From: Actinocorallia herbida
GTDB lineage: Bacteria > Actinomycetota > Actinomycetes > Streptosporangiales > Streptosporangiaceae
Length of the DNA: 64,000 bases
Direction: 5' to 3'
NCBI RefSeq assembly: GCF_003751225.1
Contig: NZ_RJKE01000001.1
Coordinates: 1,488,001-1,552,000 of the forward strand
Position 1 is the stretch's first letter, and each line of letters begins with the position of its first letter. The notes under the pieces were generated by a model. That model did no database searches and was not told the DNA's origin. It saw only the letters and a program-made list of their open reading frames with translations. This document shows positions 50,082 through 58,863 of this stretch, piece by piece. The position numbers and the translations under genes were made by a program.

Positions 50082-50094
50082 GGGAGGGATGGGA

Positions 50095-50721
50095 ATGAAG
50101 AACATCGTCATCCTCGACTACGGGTCGGGGAACCTGCGCTCGGCCGAACGCGCGGTGGCCAGGGTCGGCGCCGAGGTCACCGTCACGTCGGACTTCGACA
50201 CCGCGCTGAACGCCGACGGCCTGGTCGTCCCGGGCGTCGGCGCGTTCGCCGCCTGCATGGCGGGCCTCAAGTCGGTCCGCGGCGAGCAGATCATCGGCCG
50301 CCGCCTGGCCGGGGGCCGCCCGGTCCTCGGCATCTGCGTCGGCATGCAGATCCTCTTCGCCGAGGGCGTCGAGCACGGCATCACCACCGAGGGCTGCAAC
50401 GAGTGGCCCGGCACCGTCGAGCGCCTGCACGCCCCGGTCATCCCGCACATGGGCTGGAACACCGTCCAGGCCCCGTCGGACTCCGTCCTCTTCCGCGGCC
50501 TCGACCCCGACACCCGCTTCTACTTCGTGCACTCCTACGCCGTCCGCAAATGGGAACTCCACCCCGAGCGCATGGCCCCTCCCATCGTCACCTGGGCCGA
50601 ACACGGCGAACCCTTCGTCGCCGCCGCCGAGAACGGCCCCCTCTCCGCCGCCCAGTTCCACCCGGAGAAGTCCGGCGACGCCGGCGCCACCCTCCTCACC
50701 AACTGGCTCACCACCGTGTAG
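50095..50721 (+). CDS. hisH: Imidazole glycerol phosphate synthase, glutaminase subunit
   Basis: This 208-residue class I glutamine amidotransferase feeds ammonia to His[19 protein letters not shown], the nucleophile Cys in [15 protein letters not shown], and His/Glu of [10 protein letters not shown] form the triad. ATG 50095 has GAGGGAGGG properly spaced upstream; ATG 50089 is immediately next to it and less likely. It ends the first his block, although HisF, its partner, is 6.5 kb downstream. Confidence 0.96.
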
Positions 50722-50730
50722 CGCGCGCCC

Positions 50731-50778
50731 GTACATGCACGATGCTCCGGCCGCCTGGCCGGAGCATCGTGCATGTAC
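50731..50778. repeat. 22-bp perfect inverted repeat after hisH
   Basis: The arms are 50731-50752 and 50757-50778, exactly complementary over 22 bp, with a 4-nt loop GCCT. The left arm begins GTACATGCACGATG. There is no U-tract. It can end the hisH transcript but is far longer than other hairpins here. Confidence 0.85.
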
Positions 50779-50869
50779 GCGCCGGCCGCGGCACGCCGGA
50801 GTGTCGACACCTCTTGAGCATTTCCGATGCGGTTGGCACAGGGGCGGAAACGACCGTGCCCCGGGCGGC

Positions 50870-51100
50870 ATGCCGAAGCAGAGGGACGGGCTGCTCTCCC
50901 TCGTCTGCCTGCGCAACCGGATCATGCGTCACGAGCCCGTCCACGACCGTGACCTCGCCGCCGACCACGAGAAGATCCGCCGGATGCCGCGGTACCTGTC
51001 GATCGATCTGGCCGACCACGTGGCCGCGGTCACGCGGGTCGCGGAGGTCCTGTCGCGCAAGGACGACGTCTGCGCGGGCCTCACCGCGCCGAGGTTCTGA
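50870..51100 (+). pseudogene. Abi-like protein C-terminal remnant
   Basis: The 76-residue frame LLSLVCLRNRIMRHEPVHDR followed by DLAADHEKIRRMPRYLSIDL resembles the C-terminal end of actinobacterial Abi-like (abortive infection related) proteins, in which LRNRI-x-HHEP is conserved. Here the second His pair is RH. The N-terminal two-thirds of such proteins is missing; upstream DNA shows no matching domain. I call it a fragment, low to moderate confidence. Confidence 0.55.
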
Positions 51101-51109
51101 GGAGGCGCT

Positions 51110-51891
51110 GTGGCGGATCTGGTCACGATGGCCGAGATCGCCCGCCGCTGCGGCGTGCGGCGCGGCGCGGTGAGCAACTGGCGCCGCAGACATCCCGGAT
51201 CTCCGGCCCCGGCCGAGACGCTCCGAGGGCGGGATCTCTTCCCTCCAATGTGCGTCCCTCCTTCCTCGCCATGGGTGGGCCGGGAGTCGGCGTCGTGGCC
51301 GCCGGGCAGATCGGGCAGGACCACGGGATCAGAGGGTTCGGGGCCCGCAAGGTGCCACCGCACGTTGCGGCGGGGTTGGAAAGGTTCCGTCTCGAGGAGG
51401 GGGATCTCGTCTGCGTCCGGTGCGGGGAACTCGGCCGGGTCGCGCAGGTCGGCGCGGAGCATGAGGGCTGGCTCACCGGAACGTCGTGCCTGCGGATCCG
51501 GGTCAAGGAGCGAACCGCCCTCCGCCCCCGCCATCTGCTCCAGGTTCTCGCTCGGCGGGAGACGGTGAGATGGCTCGTCGCCCGCTCGCCCCGCTCGGTG
51601 ATCGCCAGTCTCCGGACCCGCACGCTCCTGGACCTGCCGGTGGTTCTTCCCCCCACGGCGGAGCAGGAGGCGATCTTGGCGGTCCTGGCGTCCCTCGACG
51701 CCGAGGAGGCCGTGCACCGCAGGGTCGCGGAGGAGACGGCGCGACTGCGGTCCGGCCTCGCCGAGAGGCTGCTCGACGGCGAGTTCACCGTGACGACGGG
51801 CGATCTTCGGGCATCGGGCCGCCTGCCGGCCGGCCCGCCGGTCTTCGGAGGGGCCGGTGAGGGGCGCTGGACGGTGATACTGGGGGGATGA
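51110..51891 (+). pseudogene. Remnant of an N6-adenine DNA methylase/specificity gene
   Basis: Positions 51110-51235 encode MADLVTMAEIARRCGVRRGA VSNWRRRHPG-type sequence, the helix-turn-helix start of solitary actinobacterial N-6 methylases. In another frame, 51250-51891 encodes GDLVCVRCGELGRVAQVG, then GTSCLRIR, RTRTLLDLPVVLPPTAEQEA and ILAVLASLDAEEAVHRRVAE, matching a type I S-subunit-like target-recognition tail. The catalytic middle (FxGxG and NPPF/Y motifs) is absent and the frame shifts between the two parts, so this looks like an internally deleted gene. The tail overlaps the next ATG (ATGA). Confidence 0.65.
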
Positions 51892-52199
51892 GCAAGGAGA
51901 GGGCTCGGCGGAGGGCCGAGCGGGAGGCTGCGGCGGCTGCGGCGGCCGAGCGGAATCGGGTGCGGCAGGTTCGGCGGACCAGGGTGCGGCGGGCCGTGGG
52001 GAAGGTGCTGCCCACGGGGGCGGCGGGGGCCGCGGCTCGGGCGCGGAGGGCGCGGTTCGGGGCCGTGGTGGTGTTCCTGGTGGCCGTGCAGGGCTTCGCC
52101 TGGGGGCTGGGGTTCGGGGGGATGGAGCGGTTCGCGGTGCTGGTGGTGTCGCTGCTGGTGGTGCCCGTGGCGGCGTTCCTGGCGTTCGACCGGCGGTGA
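51888..52199 (+). CDS. Small basic membrane protein
   Basis: This is 103 residues. A strongly basic N-terminus (KERARRRAEREAAAAAAAER) and two C-terminal membrane helices (FGAVVVFLVAVQGFAWGLGF and FAVLVVSLLVVPVAAFLAFD). Its ATG overlaps the end of the methylase remnant. A known pattern of actinobacterial hypothetical proteins; function is unknown. Confidence 0.75.
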   Translation: MSKERARRRAEREAAAAAAAERNRVRQVRRTRVRRAVGKVLPTGAAGAAARARRARFGAVVVFLVAVQGFAWGLGFGGMERFAVLVVSLLVVPVAAFLAFDRR

Positions 52200-52233
52200 T
52201 CGCGGGGGCGGGGAATGCGCGGGCGGGGTGGAT

Positions 52234-52249
52234 GGTTTAAAGTTCAACC
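52234..52249. promoter_or_regulatory. Imperfect palindrome upstream of pirin
   Basis: GGTTTAAAGTTCAACC has two mismatched arm positions and is AT-rich against its surroundings. It lies 20 bp before the pirin ATG, a suitable place for an operator or a core promoter. I cannot name the regulator. Confidence 0.35.
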
Positions 52250-52268
52250 AACCAGGGAGGTGCGTCTG

Positions 52269-53027
52269 ATGCAGGCGGCGGCGGTGGACATCCGGCGGGC
52301 GGATGAGCGGGACAAGACCAAGATCGACTGGTTGGACTCCAAGCACTCGTTCTCGTTCGGGGGGCACTACGACCCGGACAACACGCATCACGGCGTGCTG
52401 TTGGTCAACAACGACGACACCGTGAAGCCCGGGATGGGGTTCGAGACGCATCCGCATCGGGACATGGAGATCGTGACGTGGGTGCTGCGCGGGTCCCTGG
52501 TGCACCAGGACTCCGAGGGGCACAACGGGGTGATCTACCCGGGGCTGGCGCAGCGGATGAGCGCGGGGACCGGGATCCTGCACTCGGAGAAGAACGACTC
52601 CTGGAGCCTCGAGGGCGGCGACGAGCACGCCGAGCCCGTCCACTTCATTCAGATGTGGGTGGTTCCCGACGAGGCGCGGATCAAGCCCGGCTACGAGCAG
52701 CTGGAGATCGGCGACGAGCTCCTGCGCGGCGGCCTCAAGACGGTCGCCTCCGGCATGGCCAAGCACGAGTTCGACACGGCGATCCGGATCAAGAACAAGT
52801 TCGCGGCGCTGCACGTCGCGCGGCTGGAGGCGGGCGGGTCGGTGACCCTGCCGGACGCGCCCTATCTGCACCTGTTCGTCGCACGCGGCGACGTCGAGCT
52901 GGAAGGCGCGGGGGCGCTGCGCGAGGGCGACGCCGTGCGATTCACCGCCACCGGCGGCCAGAAGGTCACCGCGACGGACGCGGCGGAGGTCATGGTCTGG
53001 GAGATGCACGCCAAGGTCGCCGCCTGA
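52269..53027 (+). CDS. Pirin family protein
   Basis: This 252-residue bicupin starts at ATG 52269 with GGGAGG upstream. The N-terminal metal-binding cupin shows FETHPHRDMEIVTWVLRGSL and MSAGTGILHSEKN, with the His/His/His/Glu ligand set (HPHRD and HSE). Pirins include quercetin dioxygenases and redox-responsive regulators; which applies here cannot be told. Confidence 0.93.
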   Translation: MQAAAVDIRRADERDKTKIDWLDSKHSFSFGGHYDPDNTHHGVLLVNNDDTVKPGMGFETHPHRDMEIVTWVLRGSLVHQDSEGHNGVIYPGLAQRMSAGTGILHSEKNDSWSLEGGDEHAEPVHFIQMWVVPDEARIKPGYEQLEIGDELLRGGLKTVASGMAKHEFDTAIRIKNKFAALHVARLEAGGSVTLPDAPYLHLFVARGDVELEGAGALREGDAVRFTATGGQKVTATDAAEVMVWEMHAKVAA

Positions 53028-53054
53028 CGGCCTGACGAGCACGACCCGGGGAAA

Positions 53055-53097
53055 CACGAAGACCGCCCGCCCCTGAGAGGGGCCGGGCGGTCTCGTG
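53055..53097. terminator. Bidirectional hairpin terminator
   Basis: CACGA (53055-53059) and GACCGCCC (53061-53068) pair with GGGCGGTC (53085-53092) and TCGTG (53093-53097), with an inner CCCC/GGGG pairing, giving a long stem between the convergent pirin and GH15 genes. Confidence 0.8.
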
Positions 53098-53101
53098 GTG
53101 C

Positions 53102-54931
53102 CTACGGGCGGACCAGTGTGCCGTTGTTGTCCAGCGCGCGGTCGAGGTTGACCGCGGCGCTGATCAGCGCCAGGTGGGTGAACGCCTGCGGGAAGTTGCC
53201 GAGCGCCTCGCCGGACGGGCCGATCTCCTCGGCGTACAGGCCGACGTGGTTGGCGTAGGTCAGCATCTTCTCGAAGACCATCCGGGACTCCTTGACGCGT
53301 CCCGCCGCGGTCAGGGCGTCGACGTACCAGAAGGAGCAGAGGTTGAAGGTGCCCTCCTCGCCCTCCAGGCCGTCGTGGCCGGTCGCGGCGTACCGGTGCA
53401 CGAGGCTGTCGGAGACGAGCTCCTTGCCCAGGTGGTCGAGCGTCATGAGGAAGCGCGGGTCGGTCGGGCCGGAGAACTTGAGCATCGGCATGCACAGCAC
53501 GGCCGCGTCGAGCAGCTTGCTGCCCGGGTGCATGACGTAGGCGCCGATCTCCGGGTCCCAGCACTCCTGCTGGACGAACCGGTAGGCCTTGGCCGCGAGG
53601 CGCTGCCACTTGTTGGACCGTGCCGGGAGGCCGCGGTCGCGGGCCAGGCGCAGCGCCCGGTCGAACGCGGTCCAGGTCTGCAGGCCCGAGTAGGTGAAGC
53701 GCTGGCGGCCGCCGCGGACCTCCCAGATGCCCTCGTCCGGCTCCTCCCAGTGGTCGGCGAGCCAGTCCAGGCGCTTGGACAGGGTCTGCCACAGGTCGTA
53801 GGAGATCGGGACTTCGCGGTTGTACATGTACACCGCTTCCATGATCTCGCCGTAGACGTCGAGCTGGCGCTGCCCCGCGGCGCCGTTGCCGATCCGGACG
53901 GGACGGGACCCGCGGTAGCCCTCGAGGTGGTCCAGCGTGTGCTCGGGGATCTTGTCGGACCCGTCGACCGAGTACATGATCATGACGTCGCGCTCGAGGG
54001 TGGCCTCCTCGCAGCGGAGCTGGAGCCACTCCATGAACGCCGCGGCCTCCTCCAGGAAGCCGAGCTGCATCAGGGAGTAGATCGTGAAGGCCGAGTCGCG
54101 CAGCCAGGCGTAGCGGTAGTCCCAGTTGCGCACGCCGCCGATCCCCTCGGGCAGCGACGTGGTGGGCGCGGCGACCAGGGCGCCGGTGGGGTGGTAGACG
54201 AGCAGTTTCAGCGCCAGCGCGGAGCGGTGGACCATCTCACGCCAGCGGCCCCGGTAGCGGGACTGCCCGATCCACTTCTGCCAGAACTCCTGGGTGCGCA
54301 GGAACATCTCGTCCGCCTCACCCGGCACCAGCGGGTGCACCTGGCCCTGCCACTCCAGGACGACGTCGACGGTCTCGCCCTCATCGAGCGTGAACGTCGC
54401 CTTCACCCCGTCGCCGTCGTGGATCAGCGGCACGTTGGAGCGCAGCACGAAGCGGCCGGCCGAGGAGGTGAACACCGCGCCCACCCCTTCGACGATCTCG
54501 ATCTCGTGCGAGGCGCGGGCGTAGTCGAACGCCGGGTAGCAGCCCAGCTCGAAGGTGGCCCGGCCGCGCACCGCGCGCGCCTGGCGCACGATGAGGTCGC
54601 GGGGCGGGGCCGACCCGCTGGTCTCCGGCACCATGAAGTCGATGACCTCGCCGACGGCCTCCGCGGTGAGGAAGCGCGTCATGAGGATGTTGGTGTCGGG
54701 CAGGTAGAGCTGCTTGGGGCGGTTGGCCGACCGGCAGGACAGCGAGAAGAAGCCGCCCTTGCGCGCGTCGAGCAGGGAGGCGAACAGGGACGGGGCGTCG
54801 AAGCGCCCCGGACAGAACCAGTCGATGGTCCCGTCGGTGCCGACGAGTGCGACGGTGCGCAGATCGCCGACGATCGCGTGTTCTTCGATGGGCAGGTAAC
54901 GGCCGTACTGGACCGATCCATTTCGAGGCAC
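53102..54931 (-). CDS. Glycoside hydrolase family 15 protein (glucoamylase/trehalase-like)
   Basis: This 609-residue cytoplasmic protein begins RYLPIEEHAIVGDLRTVALV and then GTDGTIDWFCPGRFDAPSLF, the GH15 N-terminal beta domain. The (alpha/alpha)6 barrel carries GGVRNWDYRYAWLRDSAFTI, WEEPDEGIWEVRGG with the likely acid, and EEGTFNLCSFWYVDAL. Mycobacterial proteins of this layout are trehalases; others hydrolyse maltodextrins. No signal peptide, so an intracellular disaccharide role is plausible. GTG 54931 is the start. Confidence 0.92.
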   Translation of the reverse strand: MPRNGSVQYGRYLPIEEHAIVGDLRTVALVGTDGTIDWFCPGRFDAPSLFASLLDARKGGFFSLSCRSANRPKQLYLPDTNILMTRFLTAEAVGEVIDFMVPETSGSAPPRDLIVRQARAVRGRATFELGCYPAFDYARASHEIEIVEGVGAVFTSSAGRFVLRSNVPLIHDGDGVKATFTLDEGETVDVVLEWQGQVHPLVPGEADEMFLRTQEFWQKWIGQSRYRGRWREMVHRSALALKLLVYHPTGALVAAPTTSLPEGIGGVRNWDYRYAWLRDSAFTIYSLMQLGFLEEAAAFMEWLQLRCEEATLERDVMIMYSVDGSDKIPEHTLDHLEGYRGSRPVRIGNGAAGQRQLDVYGEIMEAVYMYNREVPISYDLWQTLSKRLDWLADHWEEPDEGIWEVRGGRQRFTYSGLQTWTAFDRALRLARDRGLPARSNKWQRLAAKAYRFVQQECWDPEIGAYVMHPGSKLLDAAVLCMPMLKFSGPTDPRFLMTLDHLGKELVSDSLVHRYAATGHDGLEGEEGTFNLCSFWYVDALTAAGRVKESRMVFEKMLTYANHVGLYAEEIGPSGEALGNFPQAFTHLALISAAVNLDRALDNNGTLVRP

Positions 54932-55062
54932 TCTTTTGATGGTCCTCGCTTGTGTGATGGGCGGATTGCGGACGTGTTAACAGCGTGATCCGTTATACGG
55001 ACCAGCGGGTAACTCCACTTGCCAGGATAGGTCGGCCTCGGGGGCGGATGTGCCGTGTTGGG

Positions 55063-55974
55063 TCAGGAGGGGCAGGTGCCCCGGTATTCGTTGATCTCTC
55101 GGGTCGGGAAAGCCGGACCTGGGCATAGAAACCGGTCGTATCTGGTGTCTTCATCGACATAACGCTTCAACCAGGACACCGTGTACTTGGTGATCACCGG
55201 ATTGGGCGTGATGAAGCTCAGGTGCCCGCGCTTGCGCAATTCGATGTAGGCCTTCTCCGGAGCGCGCGTCATGCTCTGGTAGAACGGCTCGGCGTGGCTG
55301 CGGACGGGCGCGACCCGGTCGTCGTCGGAGCCGAAGACGAGGGTCGGCACCCGGATCGTCCGCCAGTCCCGCTCCAGGTGCCACGGCGCGAGCGGCACGG
55401 CGGCCTTGAGGCCCGGCCGCTGGGCCGCCGCGCGCAGCACCGCGCCGCCGCCCATGGAGTGGCCCATGACCGCGAGGCGGGACGGGTCGATCCGGTCGCG
55501 GACGGGGCCGGTGGCCAGCCGGTCCAGCGCGGCGAGCAGCTGGGTGGCGCGGGCGTCCGGCCGGTCCGTGCGGTGCTTGGCGTTCAGGGTGAGCACCACG
55601 AACCCGTGCGAGGCGAGGAGCGGGCCGTAGACGGCGATCGACTTCTCGGTGCCGAGGAAGCCCGGCATGATCGCCACCGCGCCGAACGTCCCCTGGGAGA
55701 TGTCGACGGGGTAGTGCAGGGTGCCCGCGGCGGTGCCCCGCCCGGCCACCAGCCGGGTCCTGGCGACGGCGAAGGGGCCGCCCGAGGCCGTCAGGGACGC
55801 CTCGGTGGGCGCGGGGCCCCGCTGGTAGGGGCCCGTGCCCGCCGGGGCCGCCGGGGCGGCCTGGACGGGCAGGAGGGCCACCAGGGCGGCGAGCGGGACG
55901 GACAGGACCCGCGAAAGGGTCGAGAGCAAGGGGAGCGCCCCTCTCACTGGGAAGGCGAGTGATCCGACGATCAC
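55063..55974 (-). CDS. Secreted cutinase / PET-hydrolase-like esterase
   Basis: This is 303 residues from GTG 55974 (GTG 55947 also possible). A hydrophobic signal ending near VQAAPAAPA is followed by a mature part beginning YQRGPAPTEASLTASGGPF, closely like Thermobifida cutinases. Numbered from 55974, the triad is Ser173 (GHSMGGG), Asp219 (DDDRVAPV) and His251 (KRGHLSF); the Ser-Asp-His spacing equals that of TfCut2 as I recall it. The substrate-clamp aromatic is Phe106 (PGFLGTE) where TfCut2 has Tyr; Trp198 (PWHLERDW) and Met174 are kept. FLCPGP and RGTCPS hold the C-terminal disulfide (Cys284, Cys301). Confidence 0.9.
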   Translation of the reverse strand: MIVGSLAFPVRGALPLLSTLSRVLSVPLAALVALLPVQAAPAAPAGTGPYQRGPAPTEASLTASGGPFAVARTRLVAGRGTAAGTLHYPVDISQGTFGAVAIMPGFLGTEKSIAVYGPLLASHGFVVLTLNAKHRTDRPDARATQLLAALDRLATGPVRDRIDPSRLAVMGHSMGGGAVLRAAAQRPGLKAAVPLAPWHLERDWRTIRVPTLVFGSDDDRVAPVRSHAEPFYQSMTRAPEKAYIELRKRGHLSFITPNPVITKYTVSWLKRYVDEDTRYDRFLCPGPAFPTREINEYRGTCPS

Positions 55975-56091
55975 GAAGTGTGATCCCAGGTGCCGGGGCT
56001 TGTCCGCGCGGCACGCGTGCCGGATAGGAAGATCATTCGTTGCGGGGAGGGGAAAACGCCGGTCAAGGCCGTTCCCGGTAGGCTTTCCGGC

Positions 56092-56811
56092 ATGACCCTG
56101 ACGCTCCTTCCCGCCGTTGACGTCGCCGATGGCCAGGCCGTGCGCCTGGTGCAGGGCGAGGCCGGCACCGAGACCGGCTACGGCAACCCCCTCGACGCGG
56201 CCCTCGCCTGGCAGAGCGCGGGCGCCGAGTGGATCCACCTCGTCGACCTGGACGCCGCCTTCGGCCGCGGCTCCAACCGCGAGCTGCTGCGCGAGGTCAC
56301 CGGACGGCTGGACGTCAAGGTCGAGCTCTCCGGCGGCATCCGCGACGACGCCTCCCTGCGCGCCGCCCTCGACACCGGCTGCGCCCGGGTGAACCTCGGC
56401 ACCGCCGCGCTCGAGGATCCCGAGTGGACCCGCCGCGCCATCGCCGAGTTCGGCGACCGCATCGCCGTCGGCCTCGACGTGCGGGGCACCACCCTCGCCG
56501 CGCGCGGGTGGACCCGTGAGGGCGGCGACCTGTGGGAGGTGCTGGACCGGCTGGAGGCCGACGGCTGCCCCCGCTACGTCCTCACCGACGTCACCAAGGA
56601 CGGCACGCTGCGCGGCCCGAACGTCGAGCTGCTGCGCGAGGTCTGCGGCCGCACCGACAAGCCGGTGATCGCCTCCGGCGGCGTGTCCTCCCTGGAGGAC
56701 CTCAAGGTGCTGAAGGACCTCGTGCCGCTCGGCGTCGAGGGCGCGATCGTCGGCAAGGCGCTCTACGCGCAGGCCTTCACGCTCGAGGAAGCGCTGGAGC
56801 TCACTCGATGA
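56092..56811 (+). CDS. hisA: Phosphoribosyl isomerase A (HisA/TrpF, PriA)
   Basis: This is a 239-residue TIM barrel. [20 protein letters not shown] and then [20 protein letters not shown] match actinobacterial PriA, which serves both histidine (HisA) and tryptophan (TrpF) synthesis. [20 protein letters not shown] and [13 protein letters not shown] are the second phosphate-binding half. TAGGCT (56079-56084) 7 nt before the ATG is a leaderless promoter candidate that would drive the second his block. The stop overlaps ridA. Confidence 0.95.
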
Positions 56812-57197
56812 TCGAACGGATCTCCTCGGGTGGACCCTGGGAGGACCTGATCGGGTACTCGCGGGCGGTGCTGGCGGGCGACATGGCGTTCGTCTCCGGC
56901 TGCACCTCGACGGTGGACGGCGAGGTCGTCCACGTCGGTGATCCTTATGAGCAGACCCGCACGGCGTTCCAGATCGCCCTGTGGTCGCTGGAGCGGCTCG
57001 GGCTGTCGATCCGGGACGTCGTGCGGACCAGGATGTACGTCACCTCGGCCGAGCACACCGACGCGGTGGGCCGCGCGCACGGCTCGCTGTTCCGCGACGT
57101 GCGGCCCGCGGCGTCCATGCTGATCGTCGCCGGCCTGCTCGACTCGCGGATGCTGGTGGAAGTGGAAGTCGACGCGTACCGGGGGGCAGTGGCATGA
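56808..57197 (+). CDS. RidA family protein
   Basis: This 129-residue YjgF/RidA-fold protein has [20 protein letters not shown] and [20 protein letters not shown], ending with [20 protein letters not shown], in which the Arg is the usual imine-binding residue. RidA deaminates reactive enamine/imine intermediates. Position between hisA and hisF is common in actinomycetes. ATGA overlaps on both sides. Confidence 0.92.
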
Positions 57198-57955
57198 GCG
57201 TGGCCGTGAGAGTGATCCCGTGCCTGGACGTCGACGCCGGCCGGGTCGTGAAGGGCGTCAACTTCCAGAACCTGCGCGACGCGGGCGACCCGGTGGAGCT
57301 GGCGCGCCGGTACGACGCCGAGGGCGCCGACGAGCTGACGTTCCTGGACATCACCGCGTCCTCCGGCGACCGGTCGACCACCTATGACGTGGTGCGCCGC
57401 ACCGCCGAGCAGGTGTTCATCCCCCTCACCGTCGGCGGCGGCATCCGCACCGTCGAGGACGTGAACAAGCTGCTGCGCGCGGGCGCCGACAAGGTGTCGA
57501 TCAACACCGCGGCGATCGCCAGGCCCGAGTTCCTGCGCGAGGCCGCGCACCGCTACGGCAGCCAGTGCATCGTGCTGTCGGCCGACGCGCGGCGCTGCGC
57601 CGACACCCCCTCGGGTTTCGAGGTGACGACGCACGGCGGGCGCAAGGGCACCGGCATCGACGCCATCGAGTGGTGCCGCAAGGCCGAGGAGCTCGGGGTG
57701 GGCGAGATCCTGCTCAACTCGATGGACGCCGACGGCACCAAGACCGGCTTCGACCTCGAGATGCTGCGCCGGGTCCGCGAGGTCGTCGGCGTGCCCGTCA
57801 TCGCCAGCGGCGGCGCGGGCGCCCTGGAGCACTTCCCTCCCGCGGTCGAGGCGGGCGCCGACGCCGTCCTCGCCGCCTCGGTGTTCCACTTCGGCGACCT
57901 CCTCATCTCCGAGGTGAAGAGCGCCATCAGGGCCGCCGGCCACGAGGTCCGCTGA
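57194..57955 (+). CDS. hisF: Imidazole glycerol phosphate synthase, cyclase subunit
   Basis: This 253-residue TIM barrel forms imidazole glycerol phosphate and AICAR using ammonia from His[21 protein letters not shown] with the catalytic Asp, [37 protein letters not shown] and [20 protein letters not shown] are diagnostic. It overlaps ridA (ATGA) and is followed by a strong hairpin that ends the operon. Confidence 0.97.
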
Positions 57956-57957
57956 GA

Positions 57958-57996
57958 GCTGCTTTCGCCCGGGTCCCCGGCGCGGGCGAAAGCAGC
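57958..57996 (+). terminator. Hairpin terminator after hisF
   Basis: GCTGCTTTCGCCCG (57958-57971) and CGGGCGAAAGCAGC (57983-57996) form a perfect 14-bp stem. Starts 2 nt after the hisF stop. Confidence 0.85.
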
Positions 57997-58020
57997 CAGT
58001 CATACGCATAACCTGGCGGG

Positions 58021-58863
58021 GTGAATGTTGCGATCGCCACTTTCGTCGACCTGCCCGAAGGCGATGAGGACACTCCCGCGCTCATCGCCGAGCTCGGCGC
58101 GCTGGGCCATCGCGCCGAGGCGGTGCGCTGGGACGGCCCGGCCGACTGGGCCGCGTACGACCTCGTCCTCGTGCGCAGCACCTGGGACTACTCGACGCGG
58201 CTCGGGGAGTTCCTGGACTGGGCCGCGCGGGTGCCCCGGCTGGAGAACACCGCCGAGGTGCTGCGGTGGAACACCGACAAGAGCTATCTGCGGGAGCTCG
58301 GCGCGGCGGGCGTGCCCGTCGTGCCGACGCTCTGGGACCCGGCTGAGCTGCCCGAATGGCCCGACTACGTGATCAAGCCGGCGGTCTCCGCGGGCGCCCG
58401 CGACACCGCGCGATGGTCGGCGGAGGAGGCCGTCCCGGCCGCCGCGCACCTCGCGCGGCTCCGCGGCGAGGGCCGCACGGTCATGGTCCAGCCCTACCTC
58501 GACGCGGTCGACACCGCGGGGGAGACCGCCCTGGTCTTCTTCGACGGCGAGTTCAGCCACGCCGTCCGCAAGGCCCCGATCCTCACCGCGGGCGCCGGCG
58601 TCCAGCCGATGATCGCCGACACCAAGGACGAACGCGAGCAGATCACCCCCCGCGCGGCCTCGAAGGCCGAACTCGCCCTCGCCGCCGCCGTCCTGGCCGC
58701 GGCCCCCGGGAACCCGCTCTACGCCCGCATCGACTTCATCCCAGGCCCCGACGGCGACCCCGTCCTCCTGGAACTCGAACTCGCCGAGCCGTCCCTCTTC
58801 CTGCACCACGCCCCGGGCTCCGCCGCCCGCCTCGCCTCCGCGATCGTGAAGAGACTCGGCTGA
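58021..58863 (+). CDS. ATP-grasp domain protein (RimK-like)
   Basis: This 280-residue protein has the pattern of ATP-grasp ligases: ATFVDLPEGDEDTPALIAEL, YDLVLVRSTWDYSTRLGEFL, ENTAEVLRWNTDKSYLRELG, KPAVSAGARDTARW, and the Mg-binding LARIDF-like LYARIDFIPGPDGDPVLLEL with a terminal ELAEPSLFL. Such proteins resemble glutathione or ribosomal-S6 ligases; the substrate here is unknown. GTG start with TAACCT 6 nt upstream suggests leaderless expression. Confidence 0.87.
   Translation: MNVAIATFVDLPEGDEDTPALIAELGALGHRAEAVRWDGPADWAAYDLVLVRSTWDYSTRLGEFLDWAARVPRLENTAEVLRWNTDKSYLRELGAAGVPVVPTLWDPAELPEWPDYVIKPAVSAGARDTARWSAEEAVPAAAHLARLRGEGRTVMVQPYLDAVDTAGETALVFFDGEFSHAVRKAPILTAGAGVQPMIADTKDEREQITPRAASKAELALAAAVLAAAPGNPLYARIDFIPGPDGDPVLLELELAEPSLFLHHAPGSAARLASAIVKRLG

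Follow-up and report, generated by a model that had tools for sequence, protein, structure and literature searches.

The window, a stretch of 64,000 nucleotides (G+C 72%) from the genome of Actinocorallia herbida (9.8 Mb in one contig), contains on its minus strand a gene of the polyester-hydrolase/cutinase family at positions 55063..55974, recognized from its translation and from profile and PDB matches. The gene encodes a protein of 303 amino acids, read from a GTG start at 55974. A sequence-only reading of this DNA had given the same coordinates, at which we likewise found an open reading frame, but had left the strand unstated; the plus strand of 55063–55974, in the frame shown, is interrupted by stops. 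The GTG start is supported by the orthologue in a congener (G002), whose open frame ends at a stop codon only five codons upstream of the aligned start position. Residues 1–49 (55828..55974, minus) form an N-terminal leader that is signal-peptide-like by eye, and most PDB matches of the protein start at residues 46–52. A scan for sigma-70 promoters between 52900 and 56300 found none.

By alignment, the catalytic triad of the encoded protein comprises Ser173 (55456..55458, minus, as are all positions in this paragraph), the nucleophile in the motif GHSMGGG, Asp219 (55318..55320), and His251, which is located together with Leu252 (equivalent to Leu210 of PHL7) in the loop RGHLSFITPNPV (55195..55230). 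Phe106 (55657..55659; PHL7 Phe63) aligns as the aromatic clamp and presumed oxyanion-hole residue, and Trp198 (55381..55383; PHL7 Trp156) as the second clamp residue. Leu107 (55654..55656) is found where Thr is usual (PHL7 Thr64), and Arg138 (55561..55563) where Gln is usual (PHL7 Gln95). The only 2 cysteines of the protein, Cys284 (55123..55125) and Cys301 (55072..55074), both occupy conserved disulfide columns. The triad and clamp positions agree exactly with those given in the sequence-only reading, which had also described a C-terminal disulfide pair.

The gene lies between hisH (50089–50721) and hisA (56092–56811), for which the bifunctional HisA/TrpF model passes its cut-off. A GH15/trehalase-like gene (53102..54931, minus) is encoded on the same strand within the same hisH-hisA insertion. 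Profile matches to GH15, HisH, and HisA confirm the neighbors that had been described, a GH15 gene next to the cutinase gene and his genes on both sides. A profile match also identified a pirin-like gene (52215–53027, plus) between hisH and the GH15 gene; no pirin match was found at the same place in G002. The latter genome does contain an orthologue of the cutinase gene, about 72–73% identical, in the same position and accompanied by the GH15 gene.

We compared this arrangement across 100 genomes, that of the window included. At the limits set, hisA was found in 96 and hisH in 96, and both were located on one contig in 86. The median gap between hisH and hisA in these 86 genomes is 120 bases, and the gap measures 5,374 bases in the genome of the window and 3,455 bases in G002, the only 2 of the 86 with a cutinase and a GH15 gene in between. 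In a third congener (G001), the gap is 1,636 bases and the family member is located on another contig. Around 33 kb separates hisH and hisA in 2 further genomes (G076 and G098), without a family member at E up to 1e-20, and all remaining gaps are shorter than 900 bases. A search for his genes near homologues, which covered L001–L120 of the loci L001–L143 and reached 1.5 kb to each side for loci of the compared genomes, likewise returned only the genome of the window and G002. As the placement between hisH and hisA is limited to these two, we regard the cutinase and GH15 genes as a local insertion common to 2 species, rather than as conserved genes of the his operon. A functional tie between the cutinase and the GH15 enzyme was considered and rejected: adjacency means little here, with GH15 relatives (E up to 1e-100) present in 93 of the 100 genomes.

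The region contains several smaller features. The ORF at 51250–51891 (plus) matches PF01420, the specificity domain of type I restriction systems, only weakly (23.0 bits, with a cut-off of 22) and is perhaps a remnant. The stretch from 50718 to 51882 is without a DNA match in G002. A few bases after hisH lies a 26-base inverted repeat of terminator-like shape (50727–50782; 96% complementary, 4-base loop). Beside hisF, an ORF at 58021–58863 (plus) encodes a ligase-like protein, which reaches 252 bits on the D-cycloserine synthetase model NF058666, below the cut-off of 360.

Judged by its sequence, the window gene is a clear member of the PET-hydrolase-like family, as had been proposed. The encoded protein matches the Pfam profile PF12740 (PETase, PET hydrolase-like) with 329.7 bits (E = 1.7e-98; gathering cut-off 28), over profile positions 4–263 of 263 and protein residues 47–302. 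Among PDB chains, 190 distinct sequences matched at E up to 1e-3, the top match having an E-value of 1.6e-95; PHL7 variants lead the best 60 of these, followed by other polyester hydrolases and cutinases, and the alignments to solved structures are near full-length. PHL7 (7nei) is the closest of the 4 reference enzymes compared, with 54.3% identity, followed by the Thermobifida fusca cutinase (L006; 49.3%), LCC (48.4%), and IsPETase (43.7%); identity to one engineered PHL7 variant is 58.9%. The columns of the triad, Trp198, and Cys284 are common to all 4 enzymes. Cys301 aligns with a cysteine of PHL7, IsPETase, and the T. fusca cutinase, and the corresponding cysteine of LCC lies 3 columns off. 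At the clamp position, PHL7 has Phe, and the 3 remaining enzymes have Tyr.

Within the family, the protein is of type I by most sequence features that are described for this class of polyester hydrolases (PMC10076380, PMC12442448). The catalytic Ser is preceded by His (His172), the aromatic clamp of Tyr or Phe plus Trp is present (Phe106, Trp198), and Cys284 and Cys301 would form a single disulfide at the conserved pair, the second pair of IsPETase being absent. No extended loop follows the catalytic His, where the alignment with a PHL7 variant has no gap; small gaps relative to this variant lie around residues 75 and 156 and close to the C-terminus. The description of the class also comprises an alpha/beta-hydrolase fold that brings the triad residues together, for which the near full-length alignments mentioned above are the observation at sequence level, and the hydrolysis of PET or another polyester. 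The one departure is in subsite II, where Leu252 replaces the Phe described directly after the catalytic His. As PHL7, which has Leu210 at this position, is also classed as type I in PMC12442448, this Phe is not a strict feature. The characteristics of type II PETases (IsPETase, PE-H), in which Trp precedes the Ser and an additional disulfide is present, are not found in a protein with His172 and 2 cysteines. Neither are those of type III as given for HaloPETase1 in PMC12442448, which lacks the aromatic clamp and has GHSQG, where the window protein has Phe106/Trp198 and GHSMG.

On the NCBIfam model NF051441, for bis(hydroxyethyl) terephthalate hydrolase, the protein scores 363.7 bits, below the equivalog cut-off of 520. 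Two of the 6 other proteins scanned pass (L002, 522.2; L026, 531.9). As the T. fusca cutinase (453.8) and 3 other relatives (L114, 518.3; L071, 402.2; L084, 348.7) also fall short, the cut-off is evidently narrow, and a score below it should not be equated with inactivity.

Two features had been singled out in the sequence-only reading as departures from TfCut2-type enzymes, namely the Phe at the clamp and the His loop, with its GHL. The features stated for the latter enzymes were correct, as the clamp of the T. fusca cutinase reads GYTG and its His loop DGATHFAPNIP. The departures themselves, however, lost their distinction. Phe occupies the clamp position in 48 of the 106 rows of our second alignment (window included) and in 47 of the 108 other rows of the first, as well as in PHL7, and a family survey quoted in PMC10213408 gives Tyr for 51% and Phe for 46%; we therefore rejected the Phe clamp as a rarity. 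In PHL7, the F63A variant is reported at 16% of wild type, and F63Y as only slightly reduced (PMC10076380). Leu after the catalytic His is uncommon but known: it is found in PHL7 (Leu210), where other known type I enzymes are said to have Phe (PMC9303343), and for SM14est, one passage of PMC10213408 gives Leu210 and another Phe210. The GHL loop is not unique either, since PHL7 has HL and Leu is present in 6 of the 39 rows of the group of relatives defined below (window included) and in 1 of 55 others. With Phe63 and Leu210 both present in PHL7, the 2 differences from TfCut2 are those of PHL7 itself. Both odd-looking features are common to many relatives, and by its sequence the window enzyme is another member of a well-studied family and no surprise.

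To place the gene among its relatives, we used rows that were chosen by their likeness to the window protein (the best 80 of 104 relatives in the first set, and some of the matches from 2 genome searches), so that residue proportions are valid for this sample only. A quick tree of 112 rows placed the window gene in an 18-row group (SH-aLRT 96). In the second alignment, Phe occupies the clamp in 17 of these 18 rows (window included) and in 31 of the 88 others. Less usual are Leu107, Arg138, Arg249, and Ile255, as the 88 rows outside this group predominantly have Thr (79), Gln (69), Ala (77), and Asn (56) at these positions, respectively. We then added 23 relatives from a search of 341 family genomes, 27 of these genomes having a match with an E-value of 1e-91 or less, and removed 5 rows with long branches, together with 32 rows that were near-duplicates or further relatives. 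In the resulting 98-row tree, the window gene belongs to a 39-row group with a support of 97/92, the bootstrap being unsettled. PHL7, LCC, the T. fusca cutinase, IsPETase, and the second copy in the same genome all lie outside of this group. It includes 5 rows from named Actinomadura genomes, as well as 4 Pseudonocardiaceae rows (L052, L069, L073, and L077) that were outside the 18-row group.

The triad is kept in all 39 rows of the group and in all 55 others. Every row of the group has Phe at the clamp, and the equivalents of PHL7 residues 63, 132, and 156, which make up the clamp and oxyanion positions, are kept throughout (39/39). The residue after the clamp is Thr in only 3 of the 39 rows, versus 53 of the 55 outside. 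Three residues past the catalytic His, 23 of the 39 rows have Phe and 10 have Pro, versus Pro in 53 of 55. Two rows of the 18-row group, L056 (with Tyr and Thr at the marker places) and L115, had been removed ahead of the second tree for their long branches; with both restored, the counts become 40 of 41 for the clamp Phe and 4 of 41 for the Thr. It is possible, if somewhat doubtful, that these proteins constitute a separate actinobacterial branch, marked by a near-invariant Phe clamp, an aliphatic residue for the Thr beside it, variability at the position of Gln95, and Phe frequently taking the place of Pro in the His loop, and that this branch could have its own substrate range. We found no assayed or solved member among the open-licence papers and the few PDB chains that were aligned, all of which have Thr after the clamp, and a PDB search with locus L074 gave no match at a strict limit. 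A group profile was also tried for sorting PDB chains and was rejected, as the scores of members and non-members overlap.

The genome of the window encodes 2 strong family members, in addition to a weak third match (E 5e-4), and by sequence comparison the window gene is the diverged copy beside an ordinary one. This other copy (G000:C1:7922475-7923359; L002, L118) is syntenic with a gene of G002, at 85% identity. As it scores just over the NF051441 cut-off, it may offer the more promising starting point for PET activity. Divergence between the window genome and G002 was calculated as NG86 values only, with silent sites perhaps near saturation. The dN of the cutinase is 0.209, versus 0.013–0.057 for HisH, GH15, HisA, RidA, and HisF, and its dS is 0.603, versus 0.263–0.478 for the same genes; the DcsG-like ORF nearby has a dN of 0.123 and a dS of 0.578. 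The resulting dN/dS is approximately 0.35 for the cutinase, 0.04–0.22 for the neighbors in the his region, 0.37 for the ordinary copy, and 0.27–0.34 for 2 further pairs. Unusual selection on the cutinase was therefore rejected, given that dS is raised too and dN/dS resembles that of the ordinary copy. Within the one insertion in the 2 congeners (L116 against window positions 50089–58863), the GH15 proteins are 98% identical and the cutinases about 72–73%, and the silent-site divergence of the cutinase is also the higher.

Taken together, the encoded enzyme very likely belongs to the actinobacterial polyesterase-lipase-cutinase family and, in its catalytic mechanism, is a serine ester hydrolase, and the leader-like N-terminus suggests that the enzyme is probably secreted. 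By analogy with the aligned residues of PHL7, Ser173 would attack the ester carbonyl, assisted by a charge relay of His251 and Asp219; the oxyanion hole would be formed by the backbone amides of Phe106 and Met174, and Phe106 and Trp198 would hold the acyl part. With less certainty, we infer that the enzyme naturally acts on aliphatic polyesters, cutin- or suberin-like ones among them, and on acyl esters. As to measurable PET hydrolysis, our prediction is evenly balanced. In a published screen, for which 74 candidates were chosen (14 of them reported before), some hydrolysis of PET was seen for 37 of the 51 family candidates that were expressed (PMC9772341). In the lining of subsites I and II, Leu107, Arg138, Arg249, and Ile255 stand where the tested enzymes have Thr, Gln, Ala, and Asn, respectively, so a shift of specificity away from polyester is conceivable. 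Subsite I has Val221, like the Val of AML, the lipase/cutinase of Amycolatopsis mediterranei. This relative with a Phe clamp is reported to degrade PCL and PBS, but to leave PLA and PET undegraded at 30 °C (PMC7851449).

More specific readings of the substrate are compatible with the family and mechanism proposed here. The enzyme could be mainly a lipase or acyl-ester hydrolase acting on a non-polymer substrate, such as lipids, acylated glycans, or a secondary metabolite, with any polyester hydrolysis being incidental. The loop by subsite I differs strongly between the window protein (NAKHRTDRPD) and its G002 orthologue (SSVRRADFPD), which suggests that the active site is not restricted to one polymer, and a chain named lipase (1jfr) is among the best 60 of the 190 PDB matches. 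We nonetheless consider this reading somewhat unlikely, as the clamp and oxyanion residues are kept throughout the 39-row group, with Tyr in a single dropped row (L056), and as the divergence is unremarkable when silent substitutions are taken into account.

Efficient PET hydrolysis in the manner of PHL7, to which the shared Phe clamp, the Leu following the catalytic His, and the GHSMG box would point, seems more improbable still. The window enzyme is identical to PHL7 at positions 62, 63, 130–132, 156, 177, 180, 185, 189, 209, and 210, the last of which is reported as the main contributor to PHL7 activity (PMC10076380), and the proportion of active candidates in the screen mentioned above is encouraging. 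Set against this, PHL7 lies outside the 39-row group, its Thr64, Leu93, Gln95, Ile179, and Asn213 are replaced by Leu, Thr, Arg, Val, and Ile, and AML, as described in PMC7851449, illustrates that clamp and triad do not suffice for PET activity. The mature window protein is basic (computed pI 10.0), like LCC and IsPETase, as is the G002 orthologue (9.6); the computed pI is 5.9 for the second copy in the genome and 5.1–5.2 for 2 other members of the window's group. Because PHL7 and the T. fusca cutinase are acidic by computation, however, charge says little about PET activity. Finally, a misread intracellular enzyme of the dienelactone-hydrolase type, a family whose nucleophile is a Cys, can practically be dismissed: PF01738 (DLH) does exceed its low cut-off (23.8 versus 21 bits), but the same protein, with its Ser173 nucleophile and its leader, scores far higher on PF12740, and no chain so named is among the best 60 of 190 PDB matches, so that the outcome which the sequence-only reading had named as fatal, best hits to dienelactone hydrolases, did not occur when checked by sequence.

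The preferred reading, a serine hydrolase of the polyesterase-lipase-cutinase family, would on its own add one more candidate to a family in which more than 100 PETases are said to have been characterized (PMC12442448). The presence of an ordinary and a diverged copy in one genome, on the other hand, provides a natural comparison, in which one can ask whether the residues next to the clamp and those of the His loop decide if aliphatic polyester or PET is preferred.

Among known systems, PHL7 (PES-H1; 7nei, from compost) resembles the window enzyme in its triad, GHSMG motif, Phe clamp plus Trp, Leu after the His, the equivalents of His185 and Phe189, and the Cys pair; it differs at positions 64, 93, 95, 179, and 213, in lying outside the 39-row group, and in being acidic rather than basic. 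AML, likened here through its published description only (PMC7851449), is a secreted family member with the same Phe, Met, Trp, and Val substrate contacts, but its catalytic His is followed by Phe (F257), and Ala112 stands two residues past the clamp. The TfCut2-type cutinase of T. fusca, at 49.3% identity, shares the triad, the clamp Trp, and the Cys pair, and differs in its Tyr clamp (GYTG) and its GATHFAPNIP loop. The second copy in the same genome belongs to the same family with 46.9% identity, but is of the ordinary type, with GYTAYQSS and HFAPNSAN, an acidic protein, and an NF051441 score (522.2 bits, over a 258-aa part) that passes the cut-off.
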